Shown here: one piece after another, positions 24,795-35,359 of the stretch
How the letters are laid out: each line of letters starts with the position of its first letter
Numbering within the stretch: the stretch's first letter is position 1
Assembly: GCA_023473795.1 (NCBI GenBank)
Contig: JAMCYS010000086.1
Span: 62,001 to 126,000 of the forward strand
Direction: 5' to 3'
From: Chloroflexota bacterium
GTDB lineage: Bacteria > Chloroflexota > UBA6077 > FW602-bin22 > JAMCYS01
DNA: 64,000 nucleotides
Translations under genes and position numbers: made by a program
Notes under the pieces: model-generated
What the model was told of the DNA's origin: nothing
The model's database searches: none
What the model saw: the letters and a program-made list of their open reading frames with translations, nothing else

Positions 24795-25268
24795 ATGAGT
24801 GACGAGACAAACGGCCAGAAGGTGCCACGGACGCACACCATTCGCGTGCGCGTTCGTCAGAGCGACACGGACTACTTGGGCATCGTTTACAACCCGGTCT
24901 ACCTGGACTATGCCATGGAGGCCGTGTTCCAGCACGTCGAGAGCCACAAGTTCGCCCTGGAACGCCTCCGTTCCCTCGGTGGTTATTTCGTGGTGCGCCG
25001 GCACGAAATCGACTACCTGCGGCCGGCCCGGGCCAGCGACGAGCTGTTGGTGACCACGCGCATCCTGGGGATGAAGGGCCTGCTGGCCACTCGCGCCACC
25101 AGCATCGTCAACGCGACGACCGGGGAGCAGTTGGCACGGGCCAAGACCGACTACGTCTTCGTGCGAGACAACGGCCGGCCGGGCCACATCCCCAGGGCGA
25201 TCATCGACGCTTTCGAGTGGGGCGAGCAGTCTGAGCCGGCTGTTGGCGCCGCCGGGGGCGACGCCTAG
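24795..25268 (+). CDS. Acyl-CoA thioesterase, 4HBT/YbgC family (hotdog fold)
   Basis: This 157-residue hotdog-fold protein should hydrolyse an acyl-CoA thioester. The catalytic segment RVRQSDTDYLGIVYNPVYLDY (the Asp of SDTD and the GIVYNPVYLDYAMEA helix) matches YbgC/4-hydroxybenzoyl-CoA thioesterases. An ATG start follows a GGGG-AGGA region. The last four bases overlap the tail of the convergent giant activase gene. Placement between aconitase and a 2-hydroxyacyl-CoA dehydratase-activase relative suggests a role in CoA-thioester metabolism, but the acyl group is not known. Confidence 0.88.
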   Translation: MSDETNGQKVPRTHTIRVRVRQSDTDYLGIVYNPVYLDYAMEAVFQHVESHKFALERLRSLGGYFVVRRHEIDYLRPARASDELLVTTRILGMKGLLATRATSIVNATTGEQLARAKTDYVFVRDNGRPGHIPRAIIDAFEWGEQSEPAVGAAGGDA

Positions 25269-28200
25269 CGCTGGCGCACCTGCTCCGCCAGATCGGCCAC
25301 GCGCTCGGGGTTCACCCTATCCGCAAAACCGTCGAAGGTGAGGCTGATCCAGGGCTTGTGCCCGTAGCGCTTGGAGACCTGCTCGGCCAGCGCCGCCACA
25401 ATGCCGCCCGGCATGCAGCCATGGGGCATCACGGAGATCACGCCCGCAAAGTGAGGATTGCGCATTTGCCGAAGGCCGCTGCCCAGCGACAGCACTGCCT
25501 CGCTGCCGTTGCGGCTTGGTAGGTACTCCGCGGAGGCGTCCAGCAGGTCTCGGGTGCTGGGCTCCGGCTCTGGCAGCGCCTCGCGGCACCAGCCGAAGAC
25601 ACGGCCGTCGAAGTAATCCATGGCCAGTTTGCGCAGGCCGCCCCGCAAAGTACGCCCCAGGTCCCGATTTTGCCAGCCGTCCTCCAGGTTGCGCAGTGAG
25701 ACGTACTTCATCCACTCGCTCATCGGCGCCACTTCTACCTCCAGACCATTGGCCTCGCAGAGGCCGACCAGGTCCTTATTGCAGAAGCGGTTGGCGCGCA
25801 AGTAGATCTCGCCGTTGATCCCCACCAGGGGCCGTCGCGGCGGGGCGGGGTCGCGCAGGGCCAACAGCGCCGCGGTCGCCTCGCGGAGATGCCCGGCGAA
25901 GGGCCGCCTGGCCGCCACTGCGCCCACTATCACGTCGAGATAATGGCGGTAGACGCGCTCCGTCTCCCCCTTCTGGCGCTCGTACGGTCTGGTCAGCCAC
26001 AGCAGCCTCTGCAACTGGTCCACCGCCACGACGCCTTGCCAGGCCAGGAGCTCGAAAGCGGTGCCCAGGCCTAGGTCGGCATAGGCATTGTTGGAGACGG
26101 TGGTTAGCACCGTCAGCTCGATGCCAAGTTCGTCGAGAATCTTCTGCTGTTCCTGCGCATATTTGCCCAGACGGCAGGGGCCGAAGGAGCCCGCCATCAG
26201 GGTGCGCGCTCCCTTGGGGAGGGCGCCGTCGCTGGCGGCCCGCAGCAGCACTCCGAGCGAATCGCGGAATGGTAGACACTCCTTGCCGCTGGTCACGTCA
26301 CGGCTGAGAGCCAGACTGCGCTCGTCAGACTCGGGCAGCAACTCGGCCTGGACGCCGAACGCCCGCATGGCCGCCACGACCGCCGCCGCGTGATCGGCCA
26401 TTGGCGGGATCAGCATCGTCTCGCCGGCCCGGATGACCGTGGGCACTCGGCGCGCGTAGTCGGCTGGCTGGGCGCCATAGGCCAGCCCCGCCCGTCTGTA
26501 ACCGCGCAGGGTGTCGACCAGCGCCTCGATTCGCGTGACGTAGCCCGCCTCGGCCGCGTGCTCGTCGACCTCTATCTGGCCGAGCGGCTTGGCCCCCATC
26601 ATGTCCTCGACGATGTTCTGGATAATGGAATTGGGGCCGCAACCGAAGTTTGAGAGGAACAGGCCGAAGAGCTGGGGATTCTCCGCAATCAGCTTGGCTG
26701 CGGCCAGCAGCTTGCGTTCGTAGTTCCAGTACGGGCGATCGCTGATCGCCCCAACGTCCACGCTCGCCAGGGGTAAGTAGTCCAGCGGGATAGGTACCAC
26801 GCCCAGCTTCGCCAGCTCCTGCGCCATACCTAGGTTGGCGCCGGCGTCCTGGGCGTTGTAGGCGCGCGAGAGCAGCACCACGCCGATCTTCTGCGGATCG
26901 GCCGCGAGCTCGGCGAGCAGTCGCCGCCCCGCCTCTGCCAGCTGCTCTTCGAATTGTTGCTGCCTAAGCAAAGCCTTCCGCCCAGCCGCCCGGCCGCGCG
27001 CCTGGTCAAAACCAAGGCGCTTGGCGATAGCGGCGCAGCTATCTAGCCAAACCTCGTCGCCCCGCGAGAGATCGATGATGGGATCAAGCACCCTATCTCC
27101 CAAGCTGAAAGCCGAGCGGATGATGTACGGGGCGGCCTGGATGAGCGGGCAGGAATAGCGCTGGTCCTCCTCGCCCCCTTTGCGGCCCATGCGAATAGCG
27201 TTGGGCACGAGCACGAAATCGACCCCGTGTGAGAGCAACTCGGCGACGTGGCCGTGCAGCAGTTTCAGCGGGAAGCAGCTGTCCGTATAGGCGTGCTCCA
27301 GCGAGCGCTCTATGGACTGCTTGTTCGTGCCGGCGGAGAGCGACACCTCCACGCCCAGCTCGTTGAGGAACGACAGCAGCAGCGGCGCCAGGTCGAAGGT
27401 CATCAGGGCCCGTGGCACTCCCACGCTGACCCCTGCGCCCTTACCCGGGTCGTAGTCGGCGAAGAGCAGAGCCTCGCGCTCGCTGAACGGCGTCGTCGGC
27501 TTGATCCCCGTGCCGCCGGCCGCGTCGTAACGGTCGCAGCGCGAGCCGTAGTAGAGGCGGCGGCTATCGTCGGTGGTCATGAGGCTGATGGCGCAGCTGT
27601 TCTCACAATGGTGGCAGGTGAAATTGCTGAGCTTGTACCCCGCCTCGGCGATGGCCGTGAAACCGCGGAAGGGGGACACGTTGTCCTCCGGGAGCGACTC
27701 TTTGGCGAGCAGGGCAGCGCCAATGGCGCCGGTGACCTCTTTGTGAACCGGTACGATGAAGGTCCTGTCGGGAAACTCGGCCTGGAAGGCGGAAACGCAG
27801 GCCTGATTGTAGAAGACAGCACCTGTGAGGAAGACCCGTTTGCCGACTCGGCTGGTGCCCACCACCTTGGAGCGGTAGTTCTTGGCCAGGGAGACGGCCA
27901 GGCTGGCGGCAATCACATCCAGCCCCACGCCACCGTGCTGGGCCGACGTCACGGCCTGGCTCATGAACGCCGCACAGCGCTCGCCCAGATCCAGCTGGCT
28001 TGGCGCGGAAAAGGCCAGCCGAGCGAACTCGCCGGTGCGAGTGGAGACACCGAGCTGCTCGGCGAGCTCGTCGATGAAACTGCCGGTACCGGCCGCACAG
28101 GCCTTGTTCATCTGGTAATCGAGGACGGTGCCGTTCTCCAGATAGACGTACTTGGAGTCCTGCCCCCCAAGTTCGAACACGGTATCGACCGCCGAGTCAA

Positions 28201-29425
28201 TGAGCAGTGCGGCCCGCGTTTGCGCCGTGATCTCGTTCTTGATCAGGTCGGCGCCGATGAAGTTGCCGACCAGGTAGCGGCCCGAGCCGGTTACGCCCGC
28301 GCCGCGCACTCGCACTTTGCCATCGACCTGCGGCGCCAGGGCCGCCATCACCTGTTTCACCGCCTCCAAGGGTTGGCCGGCGGTCATCAGGTAGTGCTTG
28401 GCCAGGACCTCACCCTCGGGAGTAACCACGGCCGCCTTGGTGCTCGTGGAGCCGACGTCCACGCCGACGTAGACGTCGACCAGCCCACCTCGGTTGTCCA
28501 GCTCTCGCGGCCGCCAGCCATCCGGGCTGGCGCTGGCGGCGAGTGAGCGGGCCACGTGGAACACCTCGCCTTCGCCCATGCGCTCCGGGCGCAGCGCCGA
28601 GGGTGCGGCTTTGGCCGAGCGCGCCAGCAAGGCCGCGCCGAGGGCTTCGCGCCCGGCAGGGTCGGACGGCACCAGCACGCTCGGGCCACCCAGAGCTTCG
28701 GCTAAAGCCCGGCGGACGCCCGAGTTGAGGGCCACTCCCCCCAGCAAATAGACCGCCGGCTGGAAGGTGTCCCGCCACTGGGCCAAGATCATCCGCGCCA
28801 CGCTGTCAGATAGACCTGCCAGCATAGCCGCGACCGGCCAGCCCTTCTGCTGCAAGTGGATCAAGTCGGACTTGGCGAAGACGCTGCAGCGAGCGGCGAT
28901 GCGGGGCGGCGCCTCTTGCCATTCCAGACTCTTGGGACCGAACTCCTCGATGGGGATGCCCAAACGGGATGCCTGCTGCTCCAGGAAACGCCCCGTGCCC
29001 GCCGCACAGAGAGGCGAGCGAGCCACGTGCCACGGCTGGCCCAGGCCTCCCTGCAGGCCCACGACGAAGGCGGACTGGCCGCCGATCGCGACAATCGTGC
29101 GCGCGTCGGCACTGTCCGCGAGCAGCCCGGCGATGGCCGAGAAGGGCGAGGAGAAAGTCAACCAACCAGCCTGCCCGGCGTAGAGGCCCCTACCAGAACC
29201 GCAGACCCCCGCGCCGCCAAGCGCCGCCAGATCCACCTGGCCCGAGGCACGGTCAAACAGAGCCGCCACGGCGGCGGCTGGACCGGTGTAGATGCGCTCG
29301 CAGTCGGCCCAACACTGCTGCCCGGCCACGTCCACGACGGCCAGGCGCGCGTTGACCGAGCCGATATCCAGGCCTAGAAAGTGGTGGGCGCCGCACCCCG
29401 GCTCCGATTCGCTCGCAGAAGACAA
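25265..29425 (-). CDS. Giant 2-hydroxyacyl-CoA dehydratase activase-like protein (two BcrAD/BadFG ATPase domains plus DUF2229)
   Basis: About 1386 residues. Two ASKHA-fold ATPase domains in tandem begin with LGLDIGSVNARLAVVD and, near residue 323, YVGVDVGSTSTKAAVV. Each carries the cluster motif CAAGTGxF (the second as KACAAGTGSFIDE), where HgdC/BcrA-type activases bind a [4Fe-4S] cluster between subunits. Then come a CHHCENSC cysteine knot, a DUF2229 region (YTDSCFPLKLLHGH) and a dehydratase-like half with GCGPNSIIQN, CLPFRDSLG and FGPCRLGKY. Such proteins drive ATP-dependent one-electron reductions in anaerobes. TTG 29425 with GGAGG close by is the likely start; GTG 29437 is the alternative. 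No hgdAB-type dehydratase subunits lie next to it. Confidence 0.88.
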   Translation of the reverse strand: MSSASESEPGCGAHHFLGLDIGSVNARLAVVDVAGQQCWADCERIYTGPAAAVAALFDRASGQVDLAALGGAGVCGSGRGLYAGQAGWLTFSSPFSAIAGLLADSADARTIVAIGGQSAFVVGLQGGLGQPWHVARSPLCAAGTGRFLEQQASRLGIPIEEFGPKSLEWQEAPPRIAARCSVFAKSDLIHLQQKGWPVAAMLAGLSDSVARMILAQWRDTFQPAVYLLGGVALNSGVRRALAEALGGPSVLVPSDPAGREALGAALLARSAKAAPSALRPERMGEGEVFHVARSLAASASPDGWRPRELDNRGGLVDVYVGVDVGSTSTKAAVVTPEGEVLAKHYLMTAGQPLEAVKQVMAALAPQVDGKVRVRGAGVTGSGRYLVGNFIGADLIKNEITAQTRAALLIDSAVDTVFELGGQDSKYVYLENGTVLDYQMNKACAAGTGSFIDELAEQLGVSTRTGEFARLAFSAPSQLDLGERCAAFMSQAVTSAQHGGVGLDVIAASLAVSLAKNYRSKVVGTSRVGKRVFLTGAVFYNQACVSAFQAEFPDRTFIVPVHKEVTGAIGAALLAKESLPEDNVSPFRGFTAIAEAGYKLSNFTCHHCENSCAISLMTTDDSRRLYYGSRCDRYDAAGGTGIKPTTPFSEREALLFADYDPGKGAGVSVGVPRALMTFDLAPLLLSFLNELGVEVSLSAGTNKQSIERSLEHAYTDSCFPLKLLHGHVAELLSHGVDFVLVPNAIRMGRKGGEEDQRYSCPLIQAAPYIIRSAFSLGDRVLDPIIDLSRGDEVWLDSCAAIAKRLGFDQARGRAAGRKALLRQQQFEEQLAEAGRRLLAELAADPQKIGVVLLSRAYNAQDAGANLGMAQELAKLGVVPIPLDYLPLASVDVGAISDRPYWNYERKLLAAAKLIAENPQLFGLFLSNFGCGPNSIIQNIVEDMMGAKPLGQIEVDEHAAEAGYVTRIEALVDTLRGYRRAGLAYGAQPADYARRVPTVIRAGETMLIPPMADHAAAVVAAMRAFGVQAELLPESDERSLALSRDVTSGKECLPFRDSLGVLLRAASDGALPKGARTLMAGSFGPCRLGKYAQEQQKILDELGIELTVLTTVSNNAYADLGLGTAFELLAWQGVVAVDQLQRLLWLTRPYERQKGETERVYRHYLDVIVGAVAARRPFAGHLREATAALLALRDPAPPRRPLVGINGEIYLRANRFCNKDLVGLCEANGLEVEVAPMSEWMKYVSLRNLEDGWQNRDLGRTLRGGLRKLAMDYFDGRVFGWCREALPEPEPSTRDLLDASAEYLPSRNGSEAVLSLGSGLRQMRNPHFAGVISVMPHGCMPGGIVAALAEQVSKRYGHKPWISLTFDGFADRVNPERVADLAEQVRQR

Positions 29426-29504
29426 GGCTACCTCCACCTGCGGACGGACAAAGCTGCCGGCGGCGGACCAGACAGCCGTCGGCGGCCCACTCTTGGGCTA
29501 GCCT

Positions 29505-29828: not shown

Positions 29829-30173
29829 TTACTCGGTCTTGGCAGCCTCACGAGCACGCTGTGCTGCCAGCTTGCGCGCCTCGCCGCCACGCCGGCCGAT
29901 CTCGGCGTAGAACTCGGGGCCCCTCGACTCCAAAAGGCTCTCGCCACCCTTGCGGCCGATCTCGGCGTAGAACTCCAGGCCGTGTCGCGCCTTCACAGTT
30001 GAACCGCCCTTGCGGCCGATGGCCTCGTAGAAAGCCTTACCCTTCACTTCGGACACCGCCGCGCCGCCCTTGCGACCTATGCGCCGGTAGTGCTCGTCGC
30101 CGTACCGTTCCTTGGTGGTCATACCGCCCCTGCGGCCGGCCTCCCGAACGGTCATTTCCTTCTCACCTTCCAT
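29829..30173 (-). CDS. KGG-repeat stress-induced protein (GsiB-like)
   Basis: A very hydrophilic 114-residue protein made of about five tandem units of 20-21 residues, each ending in (I)GRKGG or GRRGG with aromatic spacing such as EFYAEIGRKGGE. This is the KGG repeat of general-stress/desiccation proteins like Bacillus GsiB. They are thought to be intrinsically disordered hydrophilins that protect against water stress; no enzymatic role is known. The gene stands alone with its own terminator. An AT-rich tract near 30245-30270 probably holds its promoter, but no clean consensus was seen. Confidence 0.9.
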   Translation of the reverse strand: MEGEKEMTVREAGRRGGMTTKERYGDEHYRRIGRKGGAAVSEVKGKAFYEAIGRKGGSTVKARHGLEFYAEIGRKGGESLLESRGPEFYAEIGRRGGEARKLAAQRAREAAKTE

Positions 30174-30419: not shown

Positions 30420-31922
30420 CTAGATGCCAAGCGAGATCTTGTGCCGGGGCCGCCGCGACCGCTCTTCCTTCGCCAGGGACGCACGCCGTCGCATCGCCTT
30501 CTCAGCAGGGACCTCGCTGCTCTTGGCCACTGTCGGCCAGAGGGAACCACCTATCGGCACCCCGTCGATGACCTCCGGCCGGCCGAGGCCGCGTCGAGCC
30601 ATCTCGGCGCCGCCGGCAACGCTGAGCGTGATCTCCACCCCCGCGTCCTCCGGGAGCGCGGCGCGCACGGCGTCGGCAATCATCTGGTACACGAGCGGAC
30701 TGACGGCCGGCCTTTCTACCTCGCCGTCCCCCAGGCGGATGTGGGTGTGGCCGACTCCGGAGCCCGCCTGCAGATGAATACCTTGCTTGGGGGCAGATCG
30801 GGCCTCCGCCCGCACCTGGTGAGCGATGTTGCCGGGGCTGGCCGCCGGGTCGCTCGCCGCGGTGGCCACCGCCACCCGGTGCTCCTCGAAGTCGGTTTCC
30901 CCTATGCCAGATACGGGCACGCGGACTACCGCCCCAACCGGCGAGCGCAGCTCTACGTCGGGCATCGTGCGACCGTTGAACAGCAACTCTACCGACGCCA
31001 GACTCGCCGCCGCCGCCGCGGCACCTACCGACACCGGGATGTTCTTGGCCACCCCGGCCACGTGACCGTCGGGACGCCTATGAATGCTCTCACCCGTTAT
31101 CCCGGCATCTTCTAGGTCGGTCGGTTCGTCAAGCGTGAAGGGCAGACCGTCCAGCGAGTAGCCTAGCTCCTGGCCCATGAGCTTCAGTGCCTGCGCCGCG
31201 CGTGGCAGCCGTAGCTCGCTTTCGCGGATGAGGCGCGACTGGGCGAACACTTCGTCGGGCGTGCCGCTGGCGACAATGTGCCCGTGACGCAACACATACA
31301 CCAGGTCGGCGTATCTGGGCACGAAGTCTATGTCGTGGGTCGCCATCACAACGGTCACTCCCTGACCCACCTTCAGGCGGTAGAGCAGGTCCATCATGCG
31401 GCTGGCGCCCATCGGGTCGAGTCCGGCCGTCGGCTCGTCGAGGATGATTATCGACGGCTGCAGAGCCAGCACGCCTGCCAGAGACACCCGTCGCTTCTGA
31501 CCGAAGCTGAGGGCGTGGATTGGCCGGCGCTCCAGGCCCGGCAAGCCCACCAGTTCGAGGCACTTCTTGACCCGCGACTCGATCTCTGTGGGTGGCACCC
31601 CCATGTTGCGGGGCCCAAAAGCCACATCCTCGCCCACGGTGGCCGCGAAAAGTTGATCGTTGGGATCCTGGAAGACAAACCCCAGGGAACGGTATAGCCA
31701 GGTCAAGTCGCCTTTGCCCACCTCACGACCGCTCACCAGCACTCTCCCCGAGGCGGGGTGCAGGCTGCCGCTGAAGTGGCGAAACAGCGTCGTCTTGCCC
31801 GATCCGTTCGGCCCGAGGAGGAGTACGAACTGGCCATCGCCGGCCACGAAGTTGACGTTTTCCAGCGCCTTCACGCCGGTGGGGTAGACGTAGGTTAGGT
31901 CGATCGTCTCCAGCTTGCCCAT
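30420..31922 (-). CDS. cbiO: Cobalt/nickel ECF transporter ATPase (CbiO) fused to a degenerate CbiD domain
   Basis: 500 residues. Residues 1-235 are a complete ECF-type ATPase: Walker A GPNGSGKTT (37-45), Q-loop FQDPNDQLF (84-92), signature LSFGQ (138-142), Walker B IIILDEP (158-164) and switch His196. It should energise the CbiM/N/Q importer encoded upstream. From about residue 292 the sequence follows CbiD, the cobalt-precorrin-5B C1-methyltransferase, in order: an Ala-rich helix, VATAASDPAASPGN, GIHLQAGSGVGHT, AVSPLVYQMI, GVEITLSVAGGAEMAR, IDGVPIGGS. The catalytic-type signatures of CbiD (TTGTCAAAA, KDAGDDPDVTHG, NPVPRRMI) are altered, so methyltransferase activity is doubtful. A regulatory, corrinoid-sensing or structural role is possible. 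No other cobalamin-synthesis genes are nearby. Confidence 0.88.
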   Translation of the reverse strand: MGKLETIDLTYVYPTGVKALENVNFVAGDGQFVLLLGPNGSGKTTLFRHFSGSLHPASGRVLVSGREVGKGDLTWLYRSLGFVFQDPNDQLFAATVGEDVAFGPRNMGVPPTEIESRVKKCLELVGLPGLERRPIHALSFGQKRRVSLAGVLALQPSIIILDEPTAGLDPMGASRMMDLLYRLKVGQGVTVVMATHDIDFVPRYADLVYVLRHGHIVASGTPDEVFAQSRLIRESELRLPRAAQALKLMGQELGYSLDGLPFTLDEPTDLEDAGITGESIHRRPDGHVAGVAKNIPVSVGAAAAAASLASVELLFNGRTMPDVELRSPVGAVVRVPVSGIGETDFEEHRVAVATAASDPAASPGNIAHQVRAEARSAPKQGIHLQAGSGVGHTHIRLGDGEVERPAVSPLVYQMIADAVRAALPEDAGVEITLSVAGGAEMARRGLGRPEVIDGVPIGGSLWPTVAKSSEVPAEKAMRRRASLAKEERSRRPRHKISLGI

Positions 31923-31955: not shown

Positions 31956-32801
31956 CTAGACAAGTAGACCCAAACCCAGTGCCGCCGCCAGGCCCAGCGC
32001 CACCCAGAACAGCGCTTTGACGTCAGTTGAGGTGAACCCGGCCTCACCCGCTGGCACGGGTAGGTCACCCCTGTATCCTCGCAGCAGCATCGCTTGGTAT
32101 ACGCGCTCTGCTCGGTCATAGGAGTTGACGACGACCATGCCGCCCAGAATGCCGTAGGAGCGCATGCTGTTGCGCCAGGTGCTGTGGCCGAGTCTGGTCT
32201 TCTGGGCCTCGCGGATGCGCTCAGCTTCCTCAGCCAAAAGGAAGACGTAGCGGTAGGTCAGGGCGGCGATCTCCACGACAATGGGGGGCACCCGCAGCCA
32301 GGCTGCCGTCGCCAGCATCCCGGTCATCGGCGTCGTCATGCTGACAACCAGAACCGCCGCCGTGCCGCCAATCACCCGGCTGGCTATGGTCAAGCCATGC
32401 GCCAGCCCCTCTGCGCTGGCCACCGCCGGTCCCAGCGTGAACAGCGGCGTCTGACCGGTAAGGAATACCTGGGTGAGAAACGCCACCGCCGCGAAGTACC
32501 AGGGCACCAGCAACCGGGTGGTGACGGTCCGTCCCGCTATCCCGGCCCTGAGCAAGAGAGCGACCGCCACTAAGAATATCACAAATCCGGTCAGCGGCGA
32601 GGGAGCAACCAGGTTGACGAGCAACGCCGCCGCGAGAGCGATCAACTTTGCCCGTGGGCCGACCCCTCCCAGCGCCTTCTCCCGGTCCAGCACCTGTTCG
32701 TCCTCGGTCGCGACCTCGGCAAACTCGTTGTGTTCGTGGCTGTGACCGAAGCCCAGTCCGTGGCCCGCGTGCCGGTGTTCGTGTTCGTGGTGATTAGGCA
32801 T
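31956..32801 (-). CDS. cbiQ: ECF transporter transmembrane subunit CbiQ with His-rich N-terminus
   Basis: A 281-residue transmembrane component of a cobalt or nickel ECF importer. Six or so membrane segments are followed by the cytoplasmic coupling motifs of the EcfT family (LRVPPIVVEIAALTYRYVFLL; RAERVYQAMLLRGYRG). I start at ATG 32801, which has GGAGG six bases before it and begins one base after the CbiN-like stop, so translation is coupled. The first ~24 residues contain nine His (MPNHHEHEHRHAGHG..GHSHEH), an unusual cytoplasmic metal-binding tail. A longer frame to 32912 would overlap the upstream gene and is rejected. Confidence 0.9.
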   Translation of the reverse strand: MPNHHEHEHRHAGHGLGFGHSHEHNEFAEVATEDEQVLDREKALGGVGPRAKLIALAAALLVNLVAPSPLTGFVIFLVAVALLLRAGIAGRTVTTRLLVPWYFAAVAFLTQVFLTGQTPLFTLGPAVASAEGLAHGLTIASRVIGGTAAVLVVSMTTPMTGMLATAAWLRVPPIVVEIAALTYRYVFLLAEEAERIREAQKTRLGHSTWRNSMRSYGILGGMVVVNSYDRAERVYQAMLLRGYRGDLPVPAGEAGFTSTDVKALFWVALGLAAALGLGLLV

Positions 32802-32802
32802 C

Positions 32803-33120
32803 CTAGGCCTCCTTGCGGTCCGAGGCCTTTTTCTGCCCTTCCCGCTGTTCCTGGGCGGGAGTACCGAAAAGAGAGCGCCAGGAATAGCCGACAATGAACC
32901 CCCCAATCGCACCGGCGATGGTGAACATGAAGAGCTGCAAGTCGCCGGTGACGTTGATCAGAGGGTTGGCCACCGTACCGCCCATTTGCTGAGCTCGGGT
33001 TTGCACCACGGACACGTCCACCCCTTCCCACTGGCTGGGAATGAACAAGGACACTAGGACCATAGCGGCCAGCAGGACACCGGCCAGCATGAGTGCTCTC
33101 TTACCAGTCATCTGCCTCAC
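32803..33120 (-). CDS. CbiN-like small membrane subunit of the cobalt/nickel importer
   Basis: 105 residues with two membrane helices (about 10-27 and 60-82) separated by a short extracytoplasmic loop, then a charged tail. The topology, position between CbiM and CbiQ, and the second helix LQLFMFTIAGAIGGFIVGY echo CbiN, whose typical second helix reads IESLLF..GAGxIGY. The loop lacks the usual CbiN sequence, so this is a remote homologue or a functional replacement. It is co-transcribed between cbiM (17 bases upstream) and cbiQ (1 base downstream). Confidence 0.68.
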   Translation of the reverse strand: MRQMTGKRALMLAGVLLAAMVLVSLFIPSQWEGVDVSVVQTRAQQMGGTVANPLINVTGDLQLFMFTIAGAIGGFIVGYSWRSLFGTPAQEQREGQKKASDRKEA

Positions 33121-33137: not shown

Positions 33138-33809
33138 TTAGCTCTCAGCCCGAACGGGTATGCCCAAGCGCGCCGCCAGGTCGGGCCGGCGCTCGCGGAT
33201 GAAATTGAACAGACCGACGGTGAACAGGCCGTCCAAGACAATGAGTAGCACCAGGCTCGGCAGGAAGAGGACGAATGTCGCTATCGTCATGTCAATTATC
33301 GAGCGGTCGCCGTGCAGGGCGACAGCCATCGTCGCCGACGTCGCGAAATAGACCGTCAGATCGGCCACGGCACCGGCCAGAGCCAGACCGACCCACAGAG
33401 GCAAGTTAGACCGCTTGAAGACCAGGTAGATGCCGTAACCCGTGAAACCGCCGAAAACGCCCATGTTGAGGGTGTTGGCGCCCCAAGAGGAGATGCCCCC
33501 GTGCGCCATGAATAGAGCCTGGAGCATCAGCACGATCCCGGTGACGGTCGCCGCCGCCCAGGGACCGAGTAAGATGGCCGCGATGGCTATGGCCGTCGGG
33601 TGGGCGCTGCTACCCGATACGGGAGAGGGAATCGGTAGTGCCGAGATGACAAAGACCGCCGCCGAGACCAGCCCAATTATCGGTTTGACGGCTGGATCCT
33701 CATCAACCTTCTTTTTGATCTCGGATACGCCCTTGGCAACGAACGGCACAACCGCCACTGTGGTCGCGGCCGCCACGGGCAGCGTCAGGATACCTTCAGA
33801 GATATGCAT
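33138..33809 (-). CDS. cbiM: Cobalt/nickel ECF transporter substrate-binding subunit CbiM
   Basis: The 223-residue S-component of a CbiMNQO/NikMNQO importer. It begins MHISEG, in which Met1 and His2 provide the conserved N-terminal metal site. Other family motifs are SGSSAHPTAIAIAAILLGPWAA near residue 66 and FMAHGGISSWGANTLNMG near residue 100. Seven membrane segments are predicted. It is the first gene of the operon cbiM - cbiN-like - cbiQ - cbiO(cbiD). The metal may be cobalt or nickel: a LarA-like Ni enzyme in the same window would benefit from nickel, whereas the CbiD-like tail argues for cobalt. Confidence 0.93.
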   Translation of the reverse strand: MHISEGILTLPVAAATTVAVVPFVAKGVSEIKKKVDEDPAVKPIIGLVSAAVFVISALPIPSPVSGSSAHPTAIAIAAILLGPWAAATVTGIVLMLQALFMAHGGISSWGANTLNMGVFGGFTGYGIYLVFKRSNLPLWVGLALAGAVADLTVYFATSATMAVALHGDRSIIDMTIATFVLFLPSLVLLIVLDGLFTVGLFNFIRERRPDLAARLGIPVRAES

Positions 33810-33993
33810 TGTGGATGCCTCCCAACTCTTTCCTCAGCTGGGTGAGCGTTGACTGGCTATCTTGCCCAGACCCCTGATCGGTCGGCGTCTGGCTATTAGG
33901 CTGCCACACCCAGGACGCCATATAAGCAATTCCCGTGCCAGTCTCCCGCCAGAACGAGCGTCCGGTGGTCAATCTTAAGCTGGATTCATTATA
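33810..33993 (-). promoter_or_regulatory. Promoter and long structured leader of the cobalt/nickel importer operon
   Basis: Minus strand TATAAT (33993-33988) would start a leader of roughly 170 bases before cbiM, much longer than other leaders here. Within it CTGGGTG and CACCCAG (33838-33844 and 33906-33912) can close a domain that contains a CCAGAC/GTCTGG hairpin (33866-33871 with 33887-33892). A B12-box-like AGCCAGACGCC occurs but the rest of the cobalamin riboswitch core is absent. A metal-responsive leader is possible but not shown. Confidence 0.3.
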
Positions 33994-34102
33994 AATCGTA
34001 GCAGGTTCGACCCGGTGACCGTCGGCGGGCCAATCGTTGACCCCAACCAGAACGAGCTGCTACGATGCCGAACGACTCATTTCTTGGTGGAGGTATCGAG
34101 GC

Positions 34103-35359
34103 GTGCGCTCACTGCCTCTGGGCGGGTCGTGGCGACACGGCGATTTCCGGCGCCTCTGGGCTGGGCAGACGATCTCCCAATTCGGCAGCCAGGTCACTCT
34201 GCTGGCCCTGCCTCTGGTTGCCGCCGTCTTATTGGAAGCCAGTCCCTTCGAGATGGGCTTGCTCGCCGCGCTCGAGATGGCGCCATTTCTGCTGGTGGGG
34301 CTGCCCGCCGGGGTCTGGGTCGACCGTTGGCCCCGCCGTCCCGTCCTCATTGTCGGCGATGTGGGACGGGCGCTCGTACTGGCGAGCGTGCCATTGGCTT
34401 ATGTGCTGGGCCGGCTGAGTCTGCCGCAACTTTACCTAGTGGCTTTCGTATCCGGCACGCTAACCGTGTTCTTCGACGTCGCCTACATGTCGTACCTGCC
34501 GTCCCTCATGACACGCGATCGCTTGGTGGAGGGCAACAGCAAACTGGAGACCACCCGGGCAGCGGCTCAGATCGGCGGTCCCGGCCTGGCTGGGGTGCTC
34601 ATCCAGGCCTTCTCGGCGCCCGTGGCGATAGCGGCGGATGCTGTATCGTTTGTGATCTCCGCGGCATTCTGCCTGGCGATTAGCAGTAAGGAGAAACTGC
34701 CAAGTAGAGAGGCAATGGGCAAGCGAGTCGGTATGGGGACGGAAATCGGCGATGGGCTATCGTTCGTGCTGAGCCACCCGCTACTGCGCGCCATCGCCAC
34801 CACGACGGCCCTGGCGAACCTCTCCGCTTCGGCCATCATGGCCCTCTATGTGTTGTTTGCCGTGCGCGAACTCGGCCTTGAGGCAGGAATGCTCGGACTG
34901 ATATTCGGTCTAGCCAACTTCGGTTTCCTAGTGGGGGCGCTGCTGGCAGAGCAAACTGCACGCCGAGTGGGGGTCGGGCCAACCATCGTTGCCAGTTCGC
35001 TCTTGAGCGCTCTCGGTCTGCTCCTCGTCCCGCTGGCGGCCCGAAGCAACGCCATCGCGGTGCTTATTGCCTCAGGGCTGATCGCCAGCCTGGCCGTGCC
35101 CATCTACAACATCAACCAGGTTAGCCTCCGGCAGGCGATTTGTCCCCAGCGCCTGCAGGGGCGTATGAACGCCACAATGCGCTTCCTCGTCTGGGGAACC
35201 ATGCCTCTCGGCTCCCTTCTCGGCGGGATGCTGGGAGAGGCGCTAGGGCTGCGAGCTGCTCTTGCCGTTGTCGCTTTGCTGGGTCTTTCCTGCTTCCTGC
35301 CTGTCCTCTTCTCCCCAGTCCACTCACTGCAGCAGCAGCCGGAACCGCTGCCGGACTAG
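34103..35359 (+). CDS. Major facilitator superfamily exporter (EntS-like)
   Basis: A 418-residue transporter with about twelve membrane segments. The short N-terminus GDFRRLWAGQTISQFGSQVT is typical of the MFS_3/EntS group of exporters. The loop-2 motif appears as GVWVDRWPRRPVLIVGD near residue 73, and NQVSLRQAICPQRLQGRMNATMRFLVWG near residue 340 is the matching segment of the second half. I start at GTG 34103, with GGAGGT eight bases upstream; an in-frame ATG-less extension to 34037 has no ribosome site. It is divergent from the cobalt/nickel importer. Substrate unknown (drug- or siderophore-like compounds are typical). Confidence 0.88.
   Translation: MRSLPLGGSWRHGDFRRLWAGQTISQFGSQVTLLALPLVAAVLLEASPFEMGLLAALEMAPFLLVGLPAGVWVDRWPRRPVLIVGDVGRALVLASVPLAYVLGRLSLPQLYLVAFVSGTLTVFFDVAYMSYLPSLMTRDRLVEGNSKLETTRAAAQIGGPGLAGVLIQAFSAPVAIAADAVSFVISAAFCLAISSKEKLPSREAMGKRVGMGTEIGDGLSFVLSHPLLRAIATTTALANLSASAIMALYVLFAVRELGLEAGMLGLIFGLANFGFLVGALLAEQTARRVGVGPTIVASSLLSALGLLLVPLAARSNAIAVLIASGLIASLAVPIYNINQVSLRQAICPQRLQGRMNATMRFLVWGTMPLGSLLGGMLGEALGLRAALAVVALLGLSCFLPVLFSPVHSLQQQPEPLPD

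Follow-up and report, generated by a model that had tools for sequence, protein, structure and literature searches.

A cbiM-cbiN-like-cbiQ-cbiO operon with an extended ATPase gene

The DNA analyzed here is a stretch of 64,000 nucleotides from contig JAMCYS010000086.1 of a Chloroflexota bacterium (the window). It carries, on its minus strand, a run of four ECF transporter genes, of which the last, P0001, encodes a CbiO ATPase with a domain derived from the methyltransferase CbiD (termed CbiD' herein) at its C-terminal side. The genes and the parts of P0001 are the following:

33138-33809, minus strand: cbiM, ECF S component (PF01891, E 1.2e-47; over the PRK08319 cut-off)
32803-33120, minus strand: CbiN-like small membrane protein (PRK02898, weak match, E 0.0016)
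31956-32801, minus strand: cbiQ, ECF T component (PF02361, E 1.5e-42; over the TIGR02454 cut-off)
30420-31922, minus strand: P0001, CbiO-CbiD' fusion, a single open frame of 500 amino acids
31218..31922, minus strand: CbiO ATPase domain, residues 1-235 (PF00005, E 1.3e-30; TIGR01166; all ABC motifs)
31050..31217, minus strand: CbiO C-terminal segment and linker (ELRLPRAAQALKLMGQELGYSLDGLPFTLDE...), residues 236-291, delimited by alignment
30525..31049, minus strand: CbiD', residues 292-466, corresponding to the N-terminal half of CbiD (PF01888)
30420..30524, minus strand: basic C-terminal end (residues 467-500) and stop codon

The four components of a group I ECF set are all present, with CbiN assigned by a weak match and by gene position; the CbiN-like gene lies at the identical position in the two related blocks described below (L015 and L016), with 40 to 47% identity. 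A first-pass annotation, made from the letters of this DNA, had already described a complete operon of this composition, and the family matches agree with it. Judging from the protein families and from the related operons, which lie in cobalamin clusters, the operon most likely encodes an ECF importer with cobalt as its substrate. It shares all four components with the group I ECF cobalt transporter CbiMNQO and differs from it in the extra domain on the ATPase, the weak CbiN match, and a histidine-rich N-terminus of CbiQ. The likely start of cbiQ is the ATG at 32801, and from there the first 30 residues contain 9 histidines (MPNHHEHEHRHAGHGLGFGHSHEHNE; 32724-32801, minus strand). No such N-terminus, which is possibly a metal-binding tail, is seen in CbiQ from either related block or from another contig of the assembly (C19, see below).

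The ATPase part of P0001 has a Walker A motif (GPNGSGKT at 37), a Q-loop (FQDP at 84), a signature motif (LSFGQ at 138), a Walker B motif (IIILDEP at 158), GLDP at 167, and an H-loop (THD at 195), and it passes the NCBIfam subfamily model for cbiO (TIGR01166, 226.5 bits; cut-off, 211.8). Residues 1-235 are an intact ECF ATPase, as first annotated. The first part of the linker that follows is also conserved in both related fusions. Directly downstream of P0001 lies a gene for a small KGG-repeat/LEA_5-like stress protein (29829-30173, minus strand), followed by one for a protein of 1,390 residues with two BcrAD_BadFG stretches and a DUF2229 domain, of the 2-hydroxyacyl-CoA dehydratase activase type (25265-29437, minus strand).

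Cobalamin-synthesis proteins used as queries gave no match in the rest of the window, tblastn detected no CbiX remnant downstream of P0001 within it, and no cobalamin riboswitch was found at the operon, either at the Rfam gathering score or in a permissive search of positions 33600-34300. The earlier remark that cobalamin-synthesis genes are missing thus applies to the window but not to the organism, since much of the pathway is encoded on contig C19 of the same assembly. This contig carries cbiC, cbiX, cbiX-cbiD, cbiET, cbiL, cbiF, cbiG, and cbiH, together with another, unfused cbiMNQO and a cobalamin riboswitch (Rfam); its CbiD, the second in the assembly, is complete (PF01888, E 3.5e-96) and fused behind CbiX. 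Contig C19 probably belongs to the window organism, because its GC content (0.658, compared to 0.644 for the window) and its tetranucleotide usage (correlation with the window of 0.857, compared to 0.07 to 0.80 for eight loci of other genomes) are similar and its CbiD is placed among the Chloroflexota CbiDs in the tree; the estimated contamination of the source bin is 4.8%. Contig C19 also contains cbiX and the start of cbiD twice (L017, 14965-16452), 752 bases apart and identical over 736 bases, which reflects either a recent duplication or an assembly error.

The CbiD-derived domain

The tail of P0001 matches the Pfam family CbiD (PF01888) with 68.1 bits (gathering score, 25; E 9.3e-19) over residues 299-456, which correspond to positions 7-159 of the 254 in the profile, confirming the first assignment of residues ∼292-466 to CbiD. 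The match to NCBIfam TIGR00312 (cbiD) is equally significant (E 4.8e-19), but its 68.7 bits lie well below the equivalog cut-off of 200, so the tail is a CbiD homologue that does not score as the enzyme. Only the N-terminal half of CbiD is covered. In the window protein and in both of its relatives the homology stops just past the GGISILGT segment, and the C-terminus of P0001 lies ∼40 residues beyond that position; neither a remnant of the C-terminal half of CbiD nor any further CbiD match was found elsewhere in the window.

Within the retained half, several signatures are changed: SVGAAAAAA replaces TTGTCAAAA, ATAASDPAASPGN replaces KDAGDDPDVTHG, SPLVYQMI replaces NPVPRRMI, and VIDGVPIGGS replaces GIVGGISILGT, while the segment QMIADAV is intact. 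The CbiD motifs TTG, KDAGDDPD, and NPVP are all absent; the KDAGDDPD segment is gone in all three fusions, and TTG and INPVP are gone in the window protein alone. We defined a conserved set of 57 positions, 16 of them polar, that are kept in at least 90% of 58 genuine CbiDs. The loss is stepwise: the window tail retains 23/57 (relatives, 49/57 and 43/57) and only 2/16 of the polar positions (relatives, 11/16 and 9/16), and because so few remain, the catalytic activity of CbiD' in P0001 has almost certainly been lost. The initial reading of the altered signatures as a probable loss of the catalytic role is supported by these counts and by the subthreshold TIGR00312 score.

A structure model of the tail reached a mean pLDDT of 65, a modest confidence, and a fold search of the PDB with it gave no significant match, the solved CbiD 1SR8 included, whereas a genuine CbiD handled in the same way found 1SR8 at E 1e-17. 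Helices and strands follow one another in the tail model as they do in the CbiD control model. A single-sequence search of the PDB with the window tail likewise returned no relative, but a profile built from the three CbiD' sequences matches 1SR8 (E 2.9e-7), so homology is shown here by sequence comparison rather than by fold. Compared to the cobalt-precorrin-5B (C1)-methyltransferase CbiD (1SR8), the tail is alike in the sequence of the N-terminal half and in the predicted helix and strand order and differs in lacking the catalytic motifs and the C-terminal half.

Related fusions and the descent of the tail

Among 29 genomes of the class and a sample of 400 genomes of the phylum, the truncated fusion was found in the window genome and in two others (G005 and G009), both members of a single, different family within the order. 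These relatives are Chloroflexi metagenome-assembled genomes (MAGs; contigs JAMCWX010000029.1 and JACPRP010000104.1). In both, the frame runs from CbiO through CbiD' into CbiX; downstream lie a genuine cbiD, cbiET, cbiL, cbiF, cbiG, cbiH, and cbiA, giving the order cbiC-[M-N-Q-O·D']·X-D-ET-L-F-G-H-A, and a cobalamin riboswitch (Rfam) precedes the operon. CbiX begins about where the basic end of P0001 (residues 467-500) lies and is absent from P0001. The relatives thus share with P0001 the block, the truncation point, and the clade, and differ from it in the C-terminal CbiX, the 43 to 49 of 57 conserved positions, the cobalamin operon, and the riboswitch. A class member without the block (G019) has the order cbiC-cbiX-cbiD, and in the relatives the M-N-Q-O·D' block sits exactly between cbiC and cbiX, while in the window genome it stands alone. 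This is compatible both with a gain of the block at that site in the relatives and with its loss from the site in the window lineage. In the first relative, CbiQ, CbiO, CbiD', and CbiX all lie in one open frame of 909 residues (L015, 9680-12409, minus strand). At loci L047 (10001-11128) and L046 (10001-11110), a CbiX cobaltochelatase is carried on the C-terminus of a cobalt transporter ATPase via a CbiD remnant, an arrangement for which keyword searches of the literature retrieved no description.

The first-pass annotation knew of no parallel to a CbiO-CbiD fusion, which is not borne out: full-length fusions of this kind recur in the phylum of Thermincola (Bacillota), where they were found in at least 11 of 399 sampled genomes (L083-L090 and L092-L094). 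They are open frames of 632 to 811 residues, mostly with cbiM and cbiQ on the upstream side and cbiET downstream. Like P0001, they carry CbiD behind CbiO on a single chain, as a rule downstream of cbiM and cbiQ; their CbiD is full length and lies beside cobalamin-synthesis genes, whereas that of P0001 is halved, eroded, and away from pathway genes. Parsimony on a 61-row tree requires nine changes of the fused state, so the fusion, or its loss, has occurred repeatedly. Several of the CbiD genes examined in this phylum lie immediately after cbiO, as in Thermincola itself, and in Dehalobacter restrictus the CbiD Dehre_2861 adjoins the transporter gene run Dehre_2862-2865, with CbiO encoded by Dehre_2862 (PMC4285132). 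Keyword searches of the literature, with most subscription journals outside their coverage, found no paper describing a CbiO-CbiD fusion. A further frame of 622 residues (L091, 1010-2875, minus strand) has a C-terminal CbiD preceded by ∼245 residues without a match to the CbiO query, which may possibly represent another fusion partner.

In the CbiD tree, the three CbiD' domains group together in a clade (support, 98/99) that lies outside the Chloroflexota CbiDs and has Bacillota CbiDs as its nearest other rows; a duplicate of the cbiD native to the lineage is therefore not supported as the source of the tail. The nearest outside row to the three CbiOs is a Thermincola CbiO, but the CbiO tree is poorly resolved, so a transfer from Bacillota would rest mainly on the CbiD tree. 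The best reading of P0001 is that of a truncated, almost certainly noncatalytic descendant of a CbiO-CbiD pair.

The divergence has been deep, with identity among the CbiO parts down to 54 to 61% and a branch of ∼10 changes per site leading to the window tail in the CbiD tree, a length that also fits a decaying passenger. The reading frame has nevertheless stayed open over 264 codons, which happens by chance in 0.2 to 0.4% of random sequences of like composition. The GC content of the tail by codon position (0.77/0.54/0.82) is of the coding type (flanking noncoding DNA, 0.60/0.68/0.69 and 0.51/0.57/0.68), and its synonymous codon bias is gene-like. The hydrophobicity pattern of the family is retained at nonidentical columns (r 0.30; 0/2,000 shuffles), a measure that the alignment itself favors somewhat. 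No relative close enough to allow a dN/dS estimate was found. Since the frame is open across this divergence, the tail has probably been retained as a folded, nonenzymatic module.

Possible roles of the tail

Could the unusual gene arise from an assembly or frameshift artifact that joins two genes? The draft assembly from which the window comes is fragmented, with 170 contigs, but two other MAGs carry a fusion truncated in the same way, and neither CbiX nor the missing half of CbiD has left a trace elsewhere in the window. With one arrangement in three genomes, a frameshift or chimera is excluded as the explanation, an artifact is exceedingly improbable, and the fusion can be taken as genuine, although an assembly frameshift had been a concern from the start. 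It is just as hard to credit that the tail still works as a C1-methyltransferase: its homology to CbiD is significant, but the C-terminal half is absent, the KDAGDDPD, TTG, and NPVP motifs are lost, and the same genome has a genuine CbiD elsewhere. A CbiD remnant without function, decaying at the C-terminus of a CbiO that it does not harm, deserves more serious consideration. The loss of 34/57 conserved and 14/16 polar positions, the very long branch, and the missing CbiX, riboswitch, and pathway neighbors at the window locus would all suit such a passenger. A dispensable tail should, however, have acquired a stop or frameshift while the CbiO parts drifted so far apart, and 264 open codons of coding-type composition with an intact QMIADAV speak against it. 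On balance, we regard a mere passenger as unlikely and a kept, nonenzymatic domain as somewhat likelier.

What such a domain might do is a more speculative matter. Docking and corrinoid sensing are both plausible from the sequence, and the suggestion of the first-pass annotation that the tail may couple metal import to corrinoid status is weakly favored. A specific form of the kept-domain reading is a regulator responsive to corrinoids or cobalt, in which the dead CbiD would bind a precorrin or cobalamin and gate the ATPase or transport. The tail sits on the ATPase, the lack of a riboswitch leaves room for control at the protein level, and CoaR provides a precedent of a corrin-pathway enzyme domain in a cobalt homeostasis protein: this cobalt sensor needs its CbiC-like domain for the response (PMC7689651, section 5.2.2). 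CoaR, a MerR regulator with a CbiC/CobH-like domain (PMC7689651), differs from P0001 in being a transcription regulator and in carrying another enzyme domain. The 14 polar positions lost from the tail probably include ligand contacts, and the CbiD' of the relatives joins CbiO to an enzyme, which suggests tethering over sensing; ligand gating therefore seems quite unlikely. The wider proposal, in which the pseudo-enzyme would be a module for a ligand or partner, import would be controlled by or docked to corrinoid synthesis, and in the relatives the CbiO-CbiD'-CbiX proteins would pass imported cobalt directly on to the chelatase, is one that we offer as a rather doubtful speculation.

As a whole, we consider it fairly probable that the window encodes a probable cobalt importer with a truncated, noncatalytic CbiD on its ATPase, inherited as a block, and that the tail has probably been kept. 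This Chloroflexota lineage may have acquired a gene run cbiM-N-Q-O-D like that of Bacillota; because the lineage's own CbiD would have gone on methylating, the additional copy could then have shed its C-terminal half and its catalytic residues. The sister family, in which this remnant is fused to CbiX and lies in a cobalamin operon, probably uses it to anchor the cobaltochelatase to the transporter, which would bring imported cobalt to the insertion step. In the window lineage, the block is isolated and has neither CbiX nor a riboswitch; its CbiO presumably powers import in the usual ECF way, and its tail would probably offer the ATPase a surface for docking or binding rather than an enzyme activity.

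To our knowledge, no route is established by which cells bring cobalt to the chelatase of the early-insertion (anaerobic) B12 pathway. For the late-insertion chelatase, dedicated cobalt delivery via CobW has been described (PMC7689651). The repeated fusion of a cobalt transporter ATPase to corrin enzymes, including CbiX in two genomes, hints at a physical coupling, and the decayed window copy alone is less interesting here than the recurrent CbiO-CbiD fusions and the CbiO-CbiD'-CbiX proteins. P0001, which carries its CbiD part despite the loss of the catalytic residues, would be useful for telling a structural role of that domain from an enzymatic one.
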